Positions 7,258 to 43,583 of a stretch of DNA of 45,573 bases are shown one piece after another. The translations under genes were made by a program, and so were the position numbers. The DNA is from Nanohaloarchaea archaeon B1-Br10_U2g19 (GTDB lineage: Archaea; Nanohalarchaeota; Nanosalinia; Nanosalinales; Nanosalinaceae), in NCBI GenBank assembly GCA_001563905.1, contig LKMO01000004.1, positions 1 through 45,573 of the forward strand, read 5' to 3'. Position 1 is the stretch's first letter. Every line of letters starts with the position of its first letter. Under the pieces are notes generated by a model, which was given only the letters and a program-made list of their open reading frames with translations, was not told the origin of the DNA and searched no databases.

Positions 7258-7566
7258 TTAGAATAAATCGCCTAATCCTTCTGCTGCTTCGTCTTCGTCA
7301 GCGTCGTCTTCTTCGTCTTCTTCATCTTCTTCTTCATCTTCAGCTTCTTCGCTTCCTGAGTCTGCTGCTGGTGCTGCTGCGCCGCCTGTTGCGACTGCTG
7401 TTTCCATTGCTTCTTCGATGTCTACGTCTTCTAGTGCTGCGACGAGTGCTTTGATTTCTGAGTCTTCGACGTCTAGATTTGCTGCGTCGACGATGCTTTG
7501 TAGGTTTTCTTCGTTAACTTCTTTTCCTGCTTCGTGTAGTGTTAGTGCTGCGTATACTAGTTCCAT
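7258..7566 (-). CDS. rpl12: Large ribosomal subunit protein P1/L12
   Basis: MELVYAALTLHEAGKEVNEENLQSIVDAANL; acidic hinge and GLGDLF terminus. Confidence 0.95.
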   Translation of the reverse strand: MELVYAALTLHEAGKEVNEENLQSIVDAANLDVEDSEIKALVAALEDVDIEEAMETAVATGGAAAPAADSGSEEAEDEEEDEEDEEDDADEDEAAEGLGDLF

Positions 7567-7604
7567 GTTGGTTTAACCTCAATGTATGTGAGTTTCTGTA
7601 CAAA

Positions 7605-7616
7605 CCTTAAATAAAG
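7605..7616 (-). promoter_or_regulatory. Putative TATA box for rpl12
   Basis: Minus strand CTTTATTTAAGG about 40-50 nt upstream of the rpl12 ATG. Confidence 0.5.
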
Positions 7617-7638
7617 TAGTTACATAACTGAGTACAAA

Positions 7639-8310
7639 TCAGTCTAGTTGGTCCAGAACCTCTACAACAACATACATGCCCCAGACAGTAAGAACAGTAT
7701 ACAAACCGTTCTCAACCAGAAATCTTGTCAGAGGATCGGCAACAAGTAAAACAACAAAACTGATGAAGAAGCCTGTTAGAACCAGTAGTCCCAGAAATCT
7801 TAGAGCTACAGGCTTCAACTCTTCCCGGTTCCTTCTAACCTTAGGCACAATCCAGTCCTTGTTTCTAGACGTGTTATCCTTCAGCCTATGAAACTGGTGA
7901 GTACCCGCTAAAACAGGGAGAACTACGAGTAAGTAGGCCAGAAGATCTGAAACATCAAAATACAAAGTAACAAAAAGATAGATCAAGACTGCTGAACCGA
8001 AAGCAAGAGAGCTGTAAAAAGTTTTCTTAGGTCCTTCATAACTTAGAGCGTCCAAAAATGTTGTATCTGATCTGTACTGTCTTACGATAGCTCCGCATGT
8101 AGCTAAGATAAGCGTACCGCCTGTTAAGAACAGTAGTCCTGCCAAGACGTTGTCTCCAACTACAAGGCTTTCCGGTCCGCCTCCAACCAAGTTGTACCAG
8201 CCGAGATCGTAGAGCAGCCAGCCAACAAATGTTAAGGCTATAGCGGCTATACTGGCGGCCTTAAATCTTTCAGTACCTTTCTTGATAACGGTTTTTGTAT
8301 CTAGACTCAT
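7639..8310 (-). CDS. Multi-pass membrane protein, unknown function
   Basis: 223 aa, multiple TM segments. Confidence 0.75.
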   Translation of the reverse strand: MSLDTKTVIKKGTERFKAASIAAIALTFVGWLLYDLGWYNLVGGGPESLVVGDNVLAGLLFLTGGTLILATCGAIVRQYRSDTTFLDALSYEGPKKTFYSSLAFGSAVLIYLFVTLYFDVSDLLAYLLVVLPVLAGTHQFHRLKDNTSRNKDWIVPKVRRNREELKPVALRFLGLLVLTGFFISFVVLLVADPLTRFLVENGLYTVLTVWGMYVVVEVLDQLD

Positions 8311-8387
8311 AGAACTTTCTAGATATCTGTATTTTATTAGATGTTATGGTTAAAAACCAAGAGCTCATAAAACATAAATGAGTACAA

Positions 8388-9101
8388 ATGAGTCTAGGGT
8401 TCTCGGAACTACCGGAAGAAACCAGAGTAAAACTCTCAGAAAAAGGAGAAAAAGAGCTCTGGCACCGCATAAACGAGTTCGGAGGAATCAAAAACTTCTC
8501 AGAAGCCTTCCAATACCCTAGCTCCAAACTATACAACTGGAAAAACAAAAACTCGTACATACCAATAGAAATAATACGAAAAGTCTTCGGAACCGAAGCC
8601 GCAGACGAAGTAAAAGCCTACAAAGGAAAAGGAAGAAGCAAACCCGTAAAAAACCCTGTAATACCATTGCCAGAAAACCAGGAACTTCTAACAAGAATAA
8701 ACAGCTCAGTAAACCTTTCCCACGGAACACCGATCTACCAAGTAAACGACCGAGGCCTCATACAAAGATTTGAACAGCTCCTAAACTTCTATGGAGACGT
8801 ACCGTACAAAATCTACAACAGAGACTCTGTATACGAACTAAGATACCCTAAATACCTTCATCAGATACTCCAAAAAATGAGCTACCAAGAAGACTTCGAA
8901 ACACTGGTAGATGAGACTGCAGTAATAGAAAACGGTAGGATAAAACTGGAAAACCGTGAAATAAAAATCGAAGAGTTTGAAGGAAAACTTTACTCCCGTA
9001 AAAAAGCTTTGAAACTAGCATTAGAGAAAGAAGACGAGACCAAAGTAAGACAGTTAATCATGGAAGAGGCTGAAAAAGTACGTCAGACCTTCAACCAGTA
9101 A
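8388..9101 (+). CDS. HTH protein with possible degenerate LAGLIDADG-like domain
   Basis: IKNFSEAFQYPSSKLYNWKNKNSYIPIEIIRKV (HTH-like), then NDRGLIQRFEQLLNFYGDVPYKIYNRDSVYELRYPKYLHQILQKM resembling the LAGLIDADG-family core without the acidic motif. Confidence 0.6.
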   Translation: MSLGFSELPEETRVKLSEKGEKELWHRINEFGGIKNFSEAFQYPSSKLYNWKNKNSYIPIEIIRKVFGTEAADEVKAYKGKGRSKPVKNPVIPLPENQELLTRINSSVNLSHGTPIYQVNDRGLIQRFEQLLNFYGDVPYKIYNRDSVYELRYPKYLHQILQKMSYQEDFETLVDETAVIENGRIKLENREIKIEEFEGKLYSRKKALKLALEKEDETKVRQLIMEEAEKVRQTFNQ

Positions 9102-9109
9102 AAAAACAG

Positions 9110-9979
9110 TTAACTGAACTCTTCAGAAACCGTATAGCTCTGATCTTCACCGTACTCAGTATAATAAGTCTCTGAAAATAACTCTAGATAACCATCTGAA
9201 GCATCCTCATCTTCAATCTCAGCCACAATATGATAACTATGTTTCACAGGTTCTCTGGTCTCCTGATCAATCCACAAATAACTTTCCAGCTTCTCAATAC
9301 TGTCATCCTCACTAAGATCCTCGGTCTCATCATTTTCAGTATCAGCTAAACTTCCAGAGCCATAAGACTCCAAAACATCTCCAAAACTCTTTCCTAAAGC
9401 TTCTACACCAGGATCCGTAGATAAGACGTATGTATCAGTGCTTCTTACTGTTTCTTGTCCTTCAAGCTCTACAGAATCAGGGTCAGCTAAATCCTCAAGA
9501 CTTCCTACACTAAGATTCAAGGGATAGCTCTCCGAAAAACCTTCCTCTTTAGATGTCAAGTTGTTCTGTTCGCCTTCCAGCGTTTTCAAAACCTGTGTCT
9601 GGTTATGTGTAACATAGTTAATGGTTTCGTAGTCTGAACTTGTAGACATACCTAATACTCCGATATCAAAGGCTCCGCTGTTTTTCAGGTAGGAAACCTC
9701 TTCAGAATAATCAAGGTAGCCTTTCGAATCTATACTTATGGAAAGACCCATCAGAAACGTATCAAAAGCCATCTTGTTTGTGCTTTCAAGCTGATAGGTC
9801 TCTATACTCTCAGCTGTCTGGAAAGAAGACTCAAGTATCTCGCCCGCAGTCTCATCAGTATCAATATCTTCAACGTTTAACTCTATGTTTTCATCAAAAC
9901 CGTCGGCTCCGGAACCGGTTATACAGCCTGATGCTAAAACTATAAGCACTAAAAGACCTGTAAGACCTAAATTATTCAT
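9110..9979 (-). CDS. Secreted lipoprotein, possible LolA/LppX-like fold
   Basis: Signal plus lipobox LVLIVLASGC; repeated acidic beta-type segments. Confidence 0.7.
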   Translation of the reverse strand: MNNLGLTGLLVLIVLASGCITGSGADGFDENIELNVEDIDTDETAGEILESSFQTAESIETYQLESTNKMAFDTFLMGLSISIDSKGYLDYSEEVSYLKNSGAFDIGVLGMSTSSDYETINYVTHNQTQVLKTLEGEQNNLTSKEEGFSESYPLNLSVGSLEDLADPDSVELEGQETVRSTDTYVLSTDPGVEALGKSFGDVLESYGSGSLADTENDETEDLSEDDSIEKLESYLWIDQETREPVKHSYHIVAEIEDEDASDGYLELFSETYYTEYGEDQSYTVSEEFS

Positions 9980-10093
9980 AAAAAACTCGTTTAATCTGGA
10001 ACCTCTTAAAATTGGTAGTTCACGTAAGTCTAGAAACGAACAAATTTTTTCAGTAAAAATAATAAGAAATAAGTAGAAAAAGAGAAGAGAAAG

Positions 10094-11026
10094 TTACTCT
10101 TCGTCTTCTTCTGACTCTTCAGAACTATCTTCCTGTTCCTCAGAATCATCGTCTTCTTCTACAGCTTCAAGATCAAGCTGTGAGTCTACACCGCGAGCGT
10201 TGGATGCTGCATAACCAATCGATTCCTCGATTGTTTCCTTGTTTGGAAGTCCTTCGGAAACTGAAACGTTTTTCGCTTTCCGTGCTGCTTCTCCAACAAT
10301 TGCCGGTGCTGTTGTAGCGTTGACAACTCCTGCATTGACTGCAAGGTTGAATGCTCCGCTTGCTGCTGCTTCAACATCTGCTCTGTACTCATCAGTATCG
10401 ATGTCAAGCTGTCCAGCTGTAAAGATCTCTCCTTCGCTGTAAGCAATCTTCAAGTCTAAACCAATCTCTAAAGGCTCAATACCCATCTGGTTCAGGATCT
10501 CTACATCGTCAGCGTCGATAGTTTCGCCTTCTTCAATGATTACTCCTGGGTTCTGGACATGGATAGTTCCATCGTCTACCTGTACTTGGAGTCCTGCGCC
10601 CTGCAGCTTTCCAAGCATAGGTCCTGGACCGATACCTGTATCTCCGTCAGGTATCTCGATATCGTTAGGAGCTACTTCTCCTCCTTGTGCGGCGGCTGAA
10701 GTCTTGTTTCTCTGAATCAGAGAGTAGAGCTGGAAAGGATCTTTCTCTGAGAAGATGAAGGCTGGCTGTACAGCTTCATTAGGATCAAGAGTTGTGATAT
10801 CCTGTTTCTCAGCGTTCTCTAATGCGATCTGCATTAGATTCTTTCTTTCCATTCTAACGTTTGCAAAGTCTTTCATCTCTTTCTTGATCTCCTGCAGCTG
10901 TTTTGCAGGTAGGCTTTGCATGTCAAGGATTCCTATTACAGGGTTTTCCTCGATCTGGTTCTGAAGCTCTTCAACGATCTGTTCTTTGTCTGCTCGTGTA
11001 AGCTTCTTTGGTACTGGCTGAACCAT
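10094..11026 (-). CDS. rpl10: Large ribosomal subunit protein P0/L10
   Basis: Archaeal L10 with domain insertion (EVAPNDIEIPDGDTGIGPGPMLGKLQGAGL) and acidic tail. Confidence 0.96.
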   Translation of the reverse strand: MVQPVPKKLTRADKEQIVEELQNQIEENPVIGILDMQSLPAKQLQEIKKEMKDFANVRMERKNLMQIALENAEKQDITTLDPNEAVQPAFIFSEKDPFQLYSLIQRNKTSAAAQGGEVAPNDIEIPDGDTGIGPGPMLGKLQGAGLQVQVDDGTIHVQNPGVIIEEGETIDADDVEILNQMGIEPLEIGLDLKIAYSEGEIFTAGQLDIDTDEYRADVEAAASGAFNLAVNAGVVNATTAPAIVGEAARKAKNVSVSEGLPNKETIEESIGYAASNARGVDSQLDLEAVEEDDDSEEQEDSSEESEEDEE

Positions 11027-11652
11027 TAGTTATCCACCTCTACTGGTTTACCCATAGTTGTCTTTACTAGGACAGATTTGATGTTGTTCTGTCCGTTAGG
11101 TAGCTCTCTTTCAACGAATTCGTAGACTGCTGAAGCGTTTCTGCTTACGTTGTCTACGTCTTGTTCTTCGTTACCTACTTTTAGCTGTAGGAGTGGAGCT
11201 TCTTTGAGTCTGAGTGTTACTGTGTTTCTCAGGGACTCGATGTCTTCTGTTGGGTCTTCTCCTGGAGGGACTGGATCCGGCATCATGTTTCTTGGTCCGA
11301 ATACCTGTCCTAGGTGTTGACCGATCTTAGGCATCAGAGGTGCTTCTGCTAGAAGGAATGAGAACTCTTCTGCTAGGTCTTTAGCTAGTGAAGGATCTTC
11401 ATACATCTCTTCTAGTTCATCTTCGCTTACTTCTCTGTCTGCGTTGTCAACTTGGCTTGCTAGTGTGTCTCCGATTACCGCGATCTTTACTTCTTCGTCT
11501 GCTTGGTAAGGAAGCTTCAGATCTTCGTTGATACGGTTGTCTGGATCGGAAAGATCTAGATCTTTGAAGTTGACGATTAGATCGATGCTTTCTGTAAAGT
11601 TTCTGTCTTCGCCGTCGTCGATAGCTTGTTCTACTGCTTGTTCAAAGTTCAT
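11026..11652 (-). CDS. rpl1: Large ribosomal subunit protein L1
   Basis: MPKIGQHLGQVFGPRNMMPDP is characteristic of archaeal L1; gene order. Confidence 0.96.
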   Translation of the reverse strand: MNFEQAVEQAIDDGEDRNFTESIDLIVNFKDLDLSDPDNRINEDLKLPYQADEEVKIAVIGDTLASQVDNADREVSEDELEEMYEDPSLAKDLAEEFSFLLAEAPLMPKIGQHLGQVFGPRNMMPDPVPPGEDPTEDIESLRNTVTLRLKEAPLLQLKVGNEEQDVDNVSRNASAVYEFVERELPNGQNNIKSVLVKTTMGKPVEVDN

Positions 11653-11667
11653 TTTCTGTTTTCACCT

Positions 11668-12165
11668 CTAGATTCCTTCTTCCGCTTGTAGGCGGTCGTC
11701 GAATTTTCCTTCGTCGATTTGTTGTTGTACTTCGTAGGCATCTTCTCCTTCGATAGTTATACCCATGCTCTGAGCTGTACCCATCACTTCTTTTACTGCT
11801 CCTCTTAGATCCATTGCAAGAAGATCTGATTCTTTCATCCTTGCAACTTTACAGACCTGTTCGAAGCTCATGTCCGCAACTTTGTTCTTGTTAGGTTCGC
11901 CGGAACCGCTTGCGATTCCTAGCTCGTCCTTGATCAGTGCGGCCATTGGAGGTTTACCGACTTCTACGGTAAAGTCTCCGGTTTCTTCATCGACTTCTAC
12001 GTCGACAGGTACTTCCATGCCTTCAAAGTCCTTGGTTTTCTCGTTTATTGCTGACACGACCTCTCCTACGTCGGCGGGCAAAGGCCCTAGTTCCGGTCCG
12101 AGAGGAGGTCCTGCGGAGGCTGAGCCTCCTTCTACCAGCGTGTTTATGGTAGTCTTGTCTCCCAT
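11668..12165 (-). CDS. rpl11: Large ribosomal subunit protein L11
   Basis: LVEGGSASAGPPLGPELGPL; QVCKVARMKESDLLAMDLRGAVKEVMGTAQSMG. Confidence 0.97.
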   Translation of the reverse strand: MGDKTTINTLVEGGSASAGPPLGPELGPLPADVGEVVSAINEKTKDFEGMEVPVDVEVDEETGDFTVEVGKPPMAALIKDELGIASGSGEPNKNKVADMSFEQVCKVARMKESDLLAMDLRGAVKEVMGTAQSMGITIEGEDAYEVQQQIDEGKFDDRLQAEEGI

Positions 12166-12201: not shown

Positions 12202-12636
12202 TTATTGTTGTGCTTTTCTTCTTACCGTGTCCACATCGACTGTTGTCGGAATTGGTACCGCTGCGTCCAGGAGTTCGATTGTTACTTCTCTGTTTGTATC
12301 GTCAATCCTGTTGATCTTTGCTTCTTCTCCTTTGAACGGTCCGCCGACTACTTCTACTTTGTCTCCGACTTCAAGCTTGATCTCTTCCTCTTCTTCGCTT
12401 AGGTATTTCTCGATCTGTTCAACATCTACTTCGTCGTTGATTATTCCTCTGAGATGTCGTACTTCGCTTGAAAGTTCTTCGATAGCTTTTTCGCTTCCTT
12501 CAATGAAGATATATCCTTTCAGGTCTTCTGGATGGAAAACCGCGTTTATATCCAAGTTCTTAGACTTGATCTTAGTGTTAAGTTCTTTGATTGCGGTCTT
12601 TTCTCTTCCACGTGTGGTTCTGGCGGTAAGTATCAT
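12202..12636 (-). CDS. spt5: Transcription elongation factor Spt5 (NusG)
   Basis: NGN domain plus KOW motif VGDKVEVVGGPFKGEEAKI. Confidence 0.95.
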   Translation of the reverse strand: MILTARTTRGREKTAIKELNTKIKSKNLDINAVFHPEDLKGYIFIEGSEKAIEELSSEVRHLRGIINDEVDVEQIEKYLSEEEEEIKLEVGDKVEVVGGPFKGEEAKINRIDDTNREVTIELLDAAVPIPTTVDVDTVRRKAQQ

Positions 12637-12642
12637 CTTGTT

Positions 12643-12849
12643 TTATCCTAGTAGTAGTTGTGGTAATAGATTTGATGCTAGGTAGAAGACGAATCCTATG
12701 AAACCGATTAAGATTATTCCTGCTCCTGTAACTTTTGCAGCCATTGAGAACTCTTCTCTATCCGGCTTGGTAGAGATTTGGAGCACTCTCTTGTACTCGT
12801 TGATTTTAGATTTCAACTCGTTCTTCCATTTTTTTGGTTCAAACTTCAT
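12643..12849 (-). CDS. secE: Preprotein translocase subunit SecE
   Basis: 68 aa, single C-terminal TM, located directly before spt5. Confidence 0.88.
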   Translation of the reverse strand: MKFEPKKWKNELKSKINEYKRVLQISTKPDREEFSMAAKVTGAGIILIGFIGFVFYLASNLLPQLLLG

Positions 12850-12950
12850 GAGTCTTCTACACCTGTAAAGACCCCGATATCGTTAGTTAGAGAACTAGAA
12901 ACTACTGTACTAGTTCCCTCCCATCAGAGATGGTTCGAACGGGGTTATAC
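12850..12950 (-). ncRNA. Structured 5' leader of the secE-spt5-rpl11-rpl1-rpl10 operon, riboswitch-like candidate
   Basis: Minus-strand RNA: P1 ACCCCG/CGGGGU, P2 CCAUC-UCU-GAUGG, P3 AGGGAACUAG/CUAGUUCUCU; alternative hairpin GGGUCUU/AAGACUC encloses AGGUG; TATA box at suitable distance upstream. Confidence 0.6.
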
Positions 12951-12970
12951 TAATTTAGAAAAGCGATACG

Positions 12971-12982
12971 AATTTTTATAAG
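12971..12982 (-). promoter_or_regulatory. Putative TATA box for the secE operon
   Basis: Minus strand CTTATAAAAATT, placing the predicted start near 12950. Confidence 0.6.
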
Positions 12983-13029
12983 AGGTTCTACTTTTGAAGA
13001 CTTTTAGCGTAGAATACTAGTTCTCTTTG

Positions 13030-13614
13030 TTATACTACTTCGCTTCCTGCATAGGAAGTATCCGAAATCTTGTTTGAAAGTATGTTCTGAAGCTCTTTAG
13101 GCTGTTCAACAAATCTTATTTTGAAGCTTTCCTGTTTAGATCCTGCTGTGTTCAAAATTATATTGCCTGTATCGAAAGGTCTCATAGATAGAGGCTGCTC
13201 CAGCTCTATATCGGTTATCTCATCAAACCTAATCATATTCTTAGAATGGTGTATGAACTGGTGCGAGATCTCTATACCGTCAGGACTTATGATGTAGCTA
13301 GTTTTGTCCAGATGTTTGTAGAGAAGTACGAGCCACATTAAGGATCCTCCTACAAACAGTAGACCGAAACCAAACAGGAACATTACTCCGCTAGGAACGC
13401 CCAGCATTTCGTAAAACCCTTGGTTTATCATTAACCAAGTAAGAGCAAATACTGCTATACCATAAGGAATCAAAGCTATCTTCACTTTATCAAACGGAGG
13501 TCCATCACCTCTACGCCGTCTCATCTCTCTTTTCTTACTGTTTCTTCCAGATTGGAGATAATACATTATACCTGACAGTTTGTGAGGCTTCAGTGTTTTT
13601 ACTTCTCTTTCCAT
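13030..13614 (-). CDS. Bacterial PH-like (YdbS/YdbT-like) membrane protein
   Basis: Two TMs then PH-like domain (MRPFDTGNIILNTAGSKQESFKIRFVEQPKELQ). Confidence 0.75.
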   Translation of the reverse strand: MEREVKTLKPHKLSGIMYYLQSGRNSKKREMRRRRGDGPPFDKVKIALIPYGIAVFALTWLMINQGFYEMLGVPSGVMFLFGFGLLFVGGSLMWLVLLYKHLDKTSYIISPDGIEISHQFIHHSKNMIRFDEITDIELEQPLSMRPFDTGNIILNTAGSKQESFKIRFVEQPKELQNILSNKISDTSYAGSEVV

Positions 13615-14072
13615 ATAATGTCCCTAAGCTCGTTGTAATTTTCTTCAGGCTGTTTAATATATCTTATTTTAATTTTGTGGGTATTTGTTCCGGCCGTATT
13701 AATGTTTACATTACCTGTACCGAATGTTCTCTGGTTCAAAGGCTTGTCATAACTTATATCGGTTACACGGTCGTAGGCCACGTTTTTCTGAGTAATACTT
13801 AACCAGCCTTCATAGAACTCTATCTCTTTCTCATAAAACCGGTACTCAGTATTTTTCAGTATGAAGTAGCTCCGTGCCTCCAAAGCTGTGAATCCGGTTA
13901 CAGCTATAATAAATGCGTAGAAAACCACATTTGTGACTAGGTTCTCATTTAGAAGTACAGAACCTGCTATAACTCCGATTACAACTGCGAAAAGCATGTT
14001 TTTTCCGGATTCGTTGATGAAACCGGACTTGAGGTCAGGTTTAACAGTTTTCACATGGTTCCTACTGGCCAT
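13599..14072 (-). CDS. Bacterial PH-like membrane protein, paralog of 13030-13614
   Basis: Two TMs; NQRTFGTGNVNINTAGTNTHKIKIRYIKQPEE; overlaps the next gene. Confidence 0.75.
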   Translation of the reverse strand: MASRNHVKTVKPDLKSGFINESGKNMLFAVVIGVIAGSVLLNENLVTNVVFYAFIIAVTGFTALEARSYFILKNTEYRFYEKEIEFYEGWLSITQKNVAYDRVTDISYDKPLNQRTFGTGNVNINTAGTNTHKIKIRYIKQPEENYNELRDIIWKEK

Positions 14073-43028: not shown

Positions 43029-43583
43029 TTAGGTGCCGAGTTCTTCGCCACAGTCAGAGCAGTAGTTGGAGGAGTCAGGGTTTTCGGCCTCACAGTTTTC
43101 GCATTTCTCTGTTTTCGGGTCTCGTTGATGTTTGTCGTGTTTAGCTTCTGTTATAGAGTTTTTTATCGATCTGGGATGCTTTACGCCTTTGAACTCTATG
43201 TTTTCTCCTGAGGCAGTATTTACTTTTATTGTACCGACTTTGAGTATTCTCTGTAGTATGTTCTGGTTGACGGAGATATCGGTCACTAAGTCAAAGGTTC
43301 CTTGGTTGAATCTTTTTTTGAAGAACTTGAACTGTCTTACAACTCTTTCGTTAGTTACGAAAAATTTGTGGCCTCTCCTATACAGTTCGGTGGTGGATAG
43401 CAATCCTATAGATAATACAACTATTAGAGCGGTAGTATAATCTAGAAAGTGCCAGGTTAGAACTGTTAGAGGTAGTAGAAGTAGTGCTAAGGAGTACTGT
43501 GTTGTGTAGTGCCAGAGACTTGGTCTGAAAAACTTCTTGACTTCCTCATCTTTTTGCAGACCGTCTTCTGGTTCAATAGCCAT
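43029..43583 (-). CDS. PH-like domain membrane protein with C-terminal zinc ribbon
   Basis: Two TMs, LQRILKVGTIKVNTASGENIEFKGVKHP, CENCEAENPDSSNYCSDCG. Confidence 0.8.
   Translation of the reverse strand: MAIEPEDGLQKDEEVKKFFRPSLWHYTTQYSLALLLLPLTVLTWHFLDYTTALIVVLSIGLLSTTELYRRGHKFFVTNERVVRQFKFFKKRFNQGTFDLVTDISVNQNILQRILKVGTIKVNTASGENIEFKGVKHPRSIKNSITEAKHDKHQRDPKTEKCENCEAENPDSSNYCSDCGEELGT

Follow-up and report, generated by a model that had tools for sequence, protein, structure and literature searches.

The leader of the secE-spt5-rpl11-rpl1-rpl10 operon of Nanohaloarchaea archaeon B1-Br10_U2g19 is, judged from sequence comparison, very probably an autoregulatory operator for ribosomal protein L1 (uL1), situated at the very start of the mRNA. 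Its conserved core is the L1 motif of 23S rRNA in circularly permuted form and represents a predicted L1 binding site. The supporting observations are a conserved structure, mimicry of rRNA, placement of the same element beside rpl1 in other archaea and an evolved fold that competes with it. The leader lies within a 45,573-nucleotide stretch of DNA (contig LKMO01000004.1, hereafter the window), and the coordinates of its parts are collected in Table 1.

Pfam searches agree with the gene identities initially read from sequence and place rpl1 fourth in the run, with ftsZ and two bPH_2 proteins encoded upstream of the operon. The secE AUG is read at position 12849 of the minus strand. The predicted TATA box is present, and nearly every leader recovered from relatives carries a TATA-like equivalent 26-37 nt 5' of helix A, where the core starts. 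This spacing puts the beginning of the core at, or no more than a few nucleotides from, the presumed mRNA 5' end and supports a predicted transcription start at or just before 12945 on the minus strand. The decamer AGAGAACTAG is found 5' of the TATA box (13017-13026, minus strand) and is the exact reverse complement of the P3 3' arm (12889-12898); the window holds two copies, and as many occur in 7 of 100 shuffles. The two bPH_2 (PF03703) reading frames between ftsZ and the secE operon are neighbours that overlap slightly (13030-14072), and a further putative frame at 43029-43583 resembles them by appearance. At the other end of the operon, about 2.5 kb lies between rpl10 and rpl12 (region 7258-11026) and contains a membrane protein frame, a frame on the opposite strand (8388-9101, plus) and a lipoprotein-like frame; the adjacency of rpl10 and rpl12 is lost.

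Table 1. Features of the secE operon and its leader, listed in the direction of transcription.
Feature	Positions	Strand	Basis
TATA box CTTATAAAAATT, secE operon promoter	12971..12982	minus	sequence reading; equivalents in relatives
Circularly permuted L1 (uL1) binding-site mimic, whole (predicted)	12913..12945	minus	covariance model, covariation, 23S comparison
Helix A 5' strand CCC (H77-like), also within P1	12941..12943	minus	pairs with 12918-12916; covariation across order
L1-site internal-loop strand GUUCGAA (G...A)	12934..12940	minus	first G and last A invariant in model alignment
P2 hairpin CCAUC-UCU-GAUGG (H76-like helix)	12921..12933	minus	compensatory changes
GA dinucleotide opposite G...A strand	12919..12920	minus	every genome has GA or AA; same in 23S
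Helix A 3' strand GGG, shared with P3	12916..12918	minus	covariation
P3 5' arm AGGGAACUAG, competes with helix A	12910..12919	minus	own-versus-swapped test
P3 3' arm CUAGUUCUCU	12889..12898	minus	own-versus-swapped test
P1 3' arm CGGGGU, pairs with 12945-12940 in L1-free three-way junction	12871..12876	minus	own-versus-swapped test
Initially proposed Shine-Dalgarno hairpin GGGUCUU/AAGACUC (12874-12868 with 12856-12850)	12850..12874	minus	present in window, not conserved
Shine-Dalgarno AGGUG of secE	12860..12864	minus	sequence reading
secE	12643..12849	minus	PF00584
spt5	12202..12636	minus	PF03439 + PF00467
rpl11	11668..12165	minus	PF00298 + PF03946
rpl1 (uL1), proposed ligand	11026..11652	minus	PF00687, 141.6 bits; aligned to archaeal L1 structures
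rpl10	10094..11026	minus	PF00466 + PF17777

The secE leader is structured and conserved throughout the window's order. A sequence-only reading of the window had proposed a riboswitch-like leader with a three-way junction, and all sequence elements that it named are found on the minus strand where it placed them. The 86-nt leader folds exactly as this P1/P2/P3 junction (z = -3.1, with 1 of 200 shuffles as good; z = -2.0 when the start codon is added). The genome contains a single copy of the element, and Rfam yielded no gathering match in the window and merely chance-level matches at E <= 5 over 12830-12990. Spt5 loci were obtained from 97 of 99 relatives. The same core is present in 26 of 26 secE leaders, own genome counted, which are all genomes of the order where the secE locus was found; three of them (L014, L018 and L006) were missed by the parser and read by hand. 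Named close relatives are Nanohaloarchaea, such as SG9, M3_22, Nanosalina J07AB43 and Nanosalinarum J07AB56.

The conserved core consists of helix A, a strand G(4-8 nt)A, the P2 hairpin, a GA or AA dinucleotide and the returning strand of helix A. In the window it reads CCC-GUUCGAA-CCAUC-UCU-GAUGG-GA-GGG (12943-12916) and makes up the 5' half of the leader; helix A was absent from the original scheme. Across the order, helix A appears as CCC/GGG, CUC/GAG, GCUC/GAGC, ACUC/GAGU, GCCUC/GAGGC and ACCUC/GAGGU. Over 21 sequences, 93% of cells in the nine base pairs of the core are paired, with a covariation of 0.53 compared to 0.25 in shuffled controls and 36 cells changed on both sides compared to 11.7. 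Sliding the pairing partner lowers covariation to 0.15 or less, and the signal persists after more distant members are added. P2 shows compensatory changes in four of five pairs and 99% paired cells. Helix A comprises only three base pairs in the window, and most of the family carries CCC/GGG without variation, so that the evidence for this helix is drawn largely from the order at large; an own-versus-swapped comparison in the family with genus g11 removed is uninformative (z = 0.1), CCC/GGG being constant there. The first covariance model was built from the 21-sequence alignment, a 25-sequence version having misregistered members with a 6-nt strand. The window's element scores 41.5 bits (E = 2.1e-8) with model R1 and 40.1 bits with R2. 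One leader of the order (L018, genome G011) has a large insertion in the P2 hairpin that adds an extra hairpin, GGUGUAACACACC, and leaves the L1 core intact.

The core matches the L1 site of 23S rRNA. The genome's own 23S gene is absent from the assembly and relatives' 23S sequences were used instead, in which bacterial-type patterns for the L1 site gave no match in first attempts. In these relatives the H76-H77 site reads GGUAG-GA-GAC...GUC-GACCAUGGGACA-CUACC and is the same motif as that of the window leader, whose GUUCGAA strand is the counterpart of GACCAUGGGACA and of GUUAUUA in the Escherichia coli leader. Within a single relative (G021), GACAG-GA-GAC...GUC-GCUAAUGGAACA-CUGUC in the 23S rRNA can be set beside CUC-GCUUAA-CUGC...GCAG-GA-GAG in the leader. 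The AA variant of the GA dinucleotide likewise occurs both in 23S rRNA and in leaders. The G...A strand is 12 nt long in 23S rRNA but 6-7 nt in nearly all leaders, and the order of the strands is swapped. The leaders of the window and its order thus show a circular permutation, with the loop capping the H76-like helix P2 and the H77-like helix left open.

Covariance-model searches place the permuted site directly before rpl1 in other archaea. A model trained on secE leaders alone and run against 99 archaeal genomes returned one strong match upstream of secE in almost all genomes of the order, one per genome, and also matched distant sites directly before rpl1. An extended model identified matches in 49 of 397 genomes (E <= 0.01), one per genome. 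Outside the order, 21 of 29 matches lie before rpl1, seven precede the secE of secE-spt5-rpl11 runs and one, near neither gene, is noise. The rpl1-type sites end 1-8 nt before the start codon, with their 3' strand GGAGGG at Shine-Dalgarno distance; six of the 21 were in the training set of the extended model after initial detection with the secE-only model, and the other 15 are independent. Overall, the L1 leader is found in about 26 families of the 397-genome sample (9 secE-type, 17 rpl1-type). Two weak matches (G080, E = 0.0047; G268, E = 0.0019) were rejected as L1 sites and counted as noise. A separate parser located four further permuted sites before rpl1 (L130, L131, L135, L136) and normal-topology sites inside the rpl1 reading frame (L112-L114). 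Other archaeal families also have normal-topology sites in the leaders that precede rpl1 (L119 in G034, L122 in G067), and therefore both topologies occur in archaea.

Permuted sites that use the rpl1 Shine-Dalgarno GGAGGG as 3' strand a few nucleotides before rpl1 are spread over many other archaeal families (L068-L073, L077-L083, L085, L087, L088, L090, L091, L093, L095-L097). The leaders with secE-type sites in other families (L076, L084, L086, L089, L092, L094, L099, L030, L031) are short, and the UUCU (in one case CUUCU) that stands a few nucleotides 3' of the site could form a miniature P3.

The downstream half of the leader competes with the L1 site. The 5' strand of the site is taken up by P1 and its GA-GGG strand by P3, which means that the L1 site can form only once both helices have opened. 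When each leader's own arms were compared with swapped arms, P3 was supported within the family (z = -5.1) and in the rest of the order (z = -3.4), while P1 was supported within the family (z = -4.1) but not significantly outside it (z = -0.6), kinship being only partly corrected in these values; with one genome per genus the values are -3.1 for P1 and -4.1 for P3. Of these two helices, P3 holds across the order and P1 within the family. Forcing the L1 site in the 26 leaders of the order costs a mean of 10.3 kcal/mol, compared to 3.4 kcal/mol with the downstream sequence shuffled, and the downstream sequence significantly opposes the site in 23 of 26 leaders (kinship again only partly corrected). 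At rpl1-type sites the cost is 2.5 kcal/mol compared to 2.9 kcal/mol in shuffles and is significant in none of 21. Since the forcing cost exceeds that of shuffles in the order and not at rpl1-type sites, the downstream half of the leader is, on these modelled energies, best read as an evolved anti-operator. These comparisons also bear on an alternative in which the L1 site is real, P1 and P3 are incidental pairings and repression is simple occupancy of the 5' end. The absence of a competing fold from rpl1-type sites elsewhere and the restriction of P1 to one family agree with it, but the support for P3 both inside and outside the family and an opposition far beyond that of shuffles make it unlikely, though it is the strongest of the alternatives.

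The mutually exclusive folds originally envisaged are upheld as to their exclusivity but not their pairing partners. The conserved exclusivity sets CCC (12943-12941) paired with GGG (12918-12916) around P2 against P1 and the lower half of P3, rather than P1 against a hairpin that encloses the Shine-Dalgarno sequence. A translational riboswitch of the latter kind, in which a ligand would shift the balance between P1 and the GGGUCUU/AAGACUC hairpin, is improbable. All of its pairings exist in the window, and the fold predicted there for the leader extended into coding sequence contains the hairpin. However, conservation of the hairpin is not borne out: 9 of 200 shuffles do as well in the window but 171 of 200 in a genome of the same genus (L003), and the mean z over 26 genomes is 0.10. 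P1 lacks significance outside the family, as noted, and the conserved core is already explained by L1. We find it equally doubtful that L1 binding activates translation. In the predicted free folds of several relatives (L008, L010, L014, L017, L020, L023-L026) the 5' strand of the L1 site is paired with the Shine-Dalgarno sequence, a pairing that L1 would release; yet feedback activation by a ribosomal protein would be unusual, and rpl1-type sites contain an SD-like GGAGG, implying that L1 acts there as a block. The simple rule that the L1-bound state hides the Shine-Dalgarno sequence was not supported, as its mean openness under constrained folding was 0.34 in the free state and 0.50 with the site forced.

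Among the ligands first suggested (a ribosomal protein of the operon, Spt5 or a metabolite), mimicry of 23S rRNA singles out the ribosomal protein, in the form of L1. A metabolite is not needed, and a metabolite riboswitch was rejected, the conserved positions coinciding with the L1 motif and the associated genes being rpl1 or secE operons alone. Genetic association by itself cannot separate L1 from L10 because rpl10 often follows rpl1, but rRNA mimicry does. L10, L11 or Spt5 is a most improbable ligand: all three are encoded in the operon, and wherever rpl1-proximal sites were read with long flanks, the gene after rpl1 is rpl10, but the site matches the L1 sites of 23S rRNA and of the E. coli leader and stands directly before rpl1, not rpl10 or rpl11, in 21 genomes. 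To our knowledge, it does not resemble L10 or L11 sites.

We return to L1 as the ligand and propose that surplus L1, when no free 23S rRNA is available, would occupy the permuted H76/H77 mimic and reduce operon expression, repression being the presumed direction. The L1 site is transcribed first and could be captured by surplus L1 ahead of the synthesis of the competing arms. If L1 is absent, the RNA would refold with the 5' strand in P1 and GA-GGG in P3, and the L1 site would be taken apart. L1 binding would then have to pay about 10 kcal/mol, such that the operator would yield to rRNA. Freed 3' arms (UUCUCU, CGGGGU) or altered initiation may carry the signal to the start codon. At rpl1-type sites, repression would be direct, with L1 covering the Shine-Dalgarno sequence. 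Overall, we lean towards a two-state, protein-operated switch, composed of the permuted L1 mimic and the P1/P3 anti-operator, that places SecE, a subunit of the Sec translocon, and Spt5, an elongation factor, under ribosomal feedback, and towards a permuted operator that is widespread in small-genome archaea and has the Shine-Dalgarno sequence embedded in it when located before rpl1.

L1 autoregulation and rRNA mimicry are already known, and autoregulation by uL1 through rRNA-mimicking mRNA sites has been reviewed for bacteria and archaea (PMC10931766). Three features are provisionally considered new, no description having been found in the literature examined: the permuted topology, the location ahead of secE-spt5 and the three-way junction that competes with the site. 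Few RNA-level regulators are known in archaea and the L1 leader would add one. Circular permutation represents a natural test of L1 recognition, in which L1 would read only two loop strands flanked by two helices and not the strand order. Through the leader, ribosome assembly would be coupled to the supply of translocon and Spt5. Elsewhere the site just covers the ribosome-binding site of rpl1; in the window's order it appears to have moved to the head of the operon and gained a competing fold, suggesting a traceable route from simple operator to switch.

Comparison with known systems shows which features are shared. Comparative genomics has previously revealed archaeal leaders for S15 (two), eL15 and L4, some of which mimic rRNA like the leader described here, and none of the 20 new leaders of that study has L1 as ligand (Eckert and Weinberg, 2020; PMC7247131). 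The E. coli rplK leader, used as a control, reads GGG-GA-GCCUC-UCA-GAGGC-GUUAUUA-CCC and contains the same element of two helices, in which GA faces a G...A strand that at 7 nt equals that of the window. This site was read by eye, the topology parser having returned nothing for an H76-like stem of only 3 bp. Both leaders lie upstream of an operon containing the L11 and L1 genes (rplK-rplA in E. coli). The E. coli leader stands before rplK with secE-nusG outside, whereas secE-spt5 is inside the window's operon, and its topology is normal and 23S-like, the loop closing the H77 side. The Methanococcus-type site, GTGAAG-GA-GGC...GCC-GCGCAA-CTTCAC (L112-L114), is archaeal and shares the motif, but has normal topology and resides within the rpl1 coding region instead of in a leader before secE; we take this in-frame site to be the published Methanococcus L1 site. 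When judged as an L1 leader, the window's element has the rRNA-like arrangement of a helix, GA opposite a G...A strand and a second helix, and belongs to an mRNA that encodes L1, as do its counterparts directly before rpl1 in 21 other genomes. It departs from the strand topology of 23S rRNA and E. coli, which is usual but not known to be required. Because both loop strands and both helices are kept, we class the leader as a variant that would work like an L1 leader.
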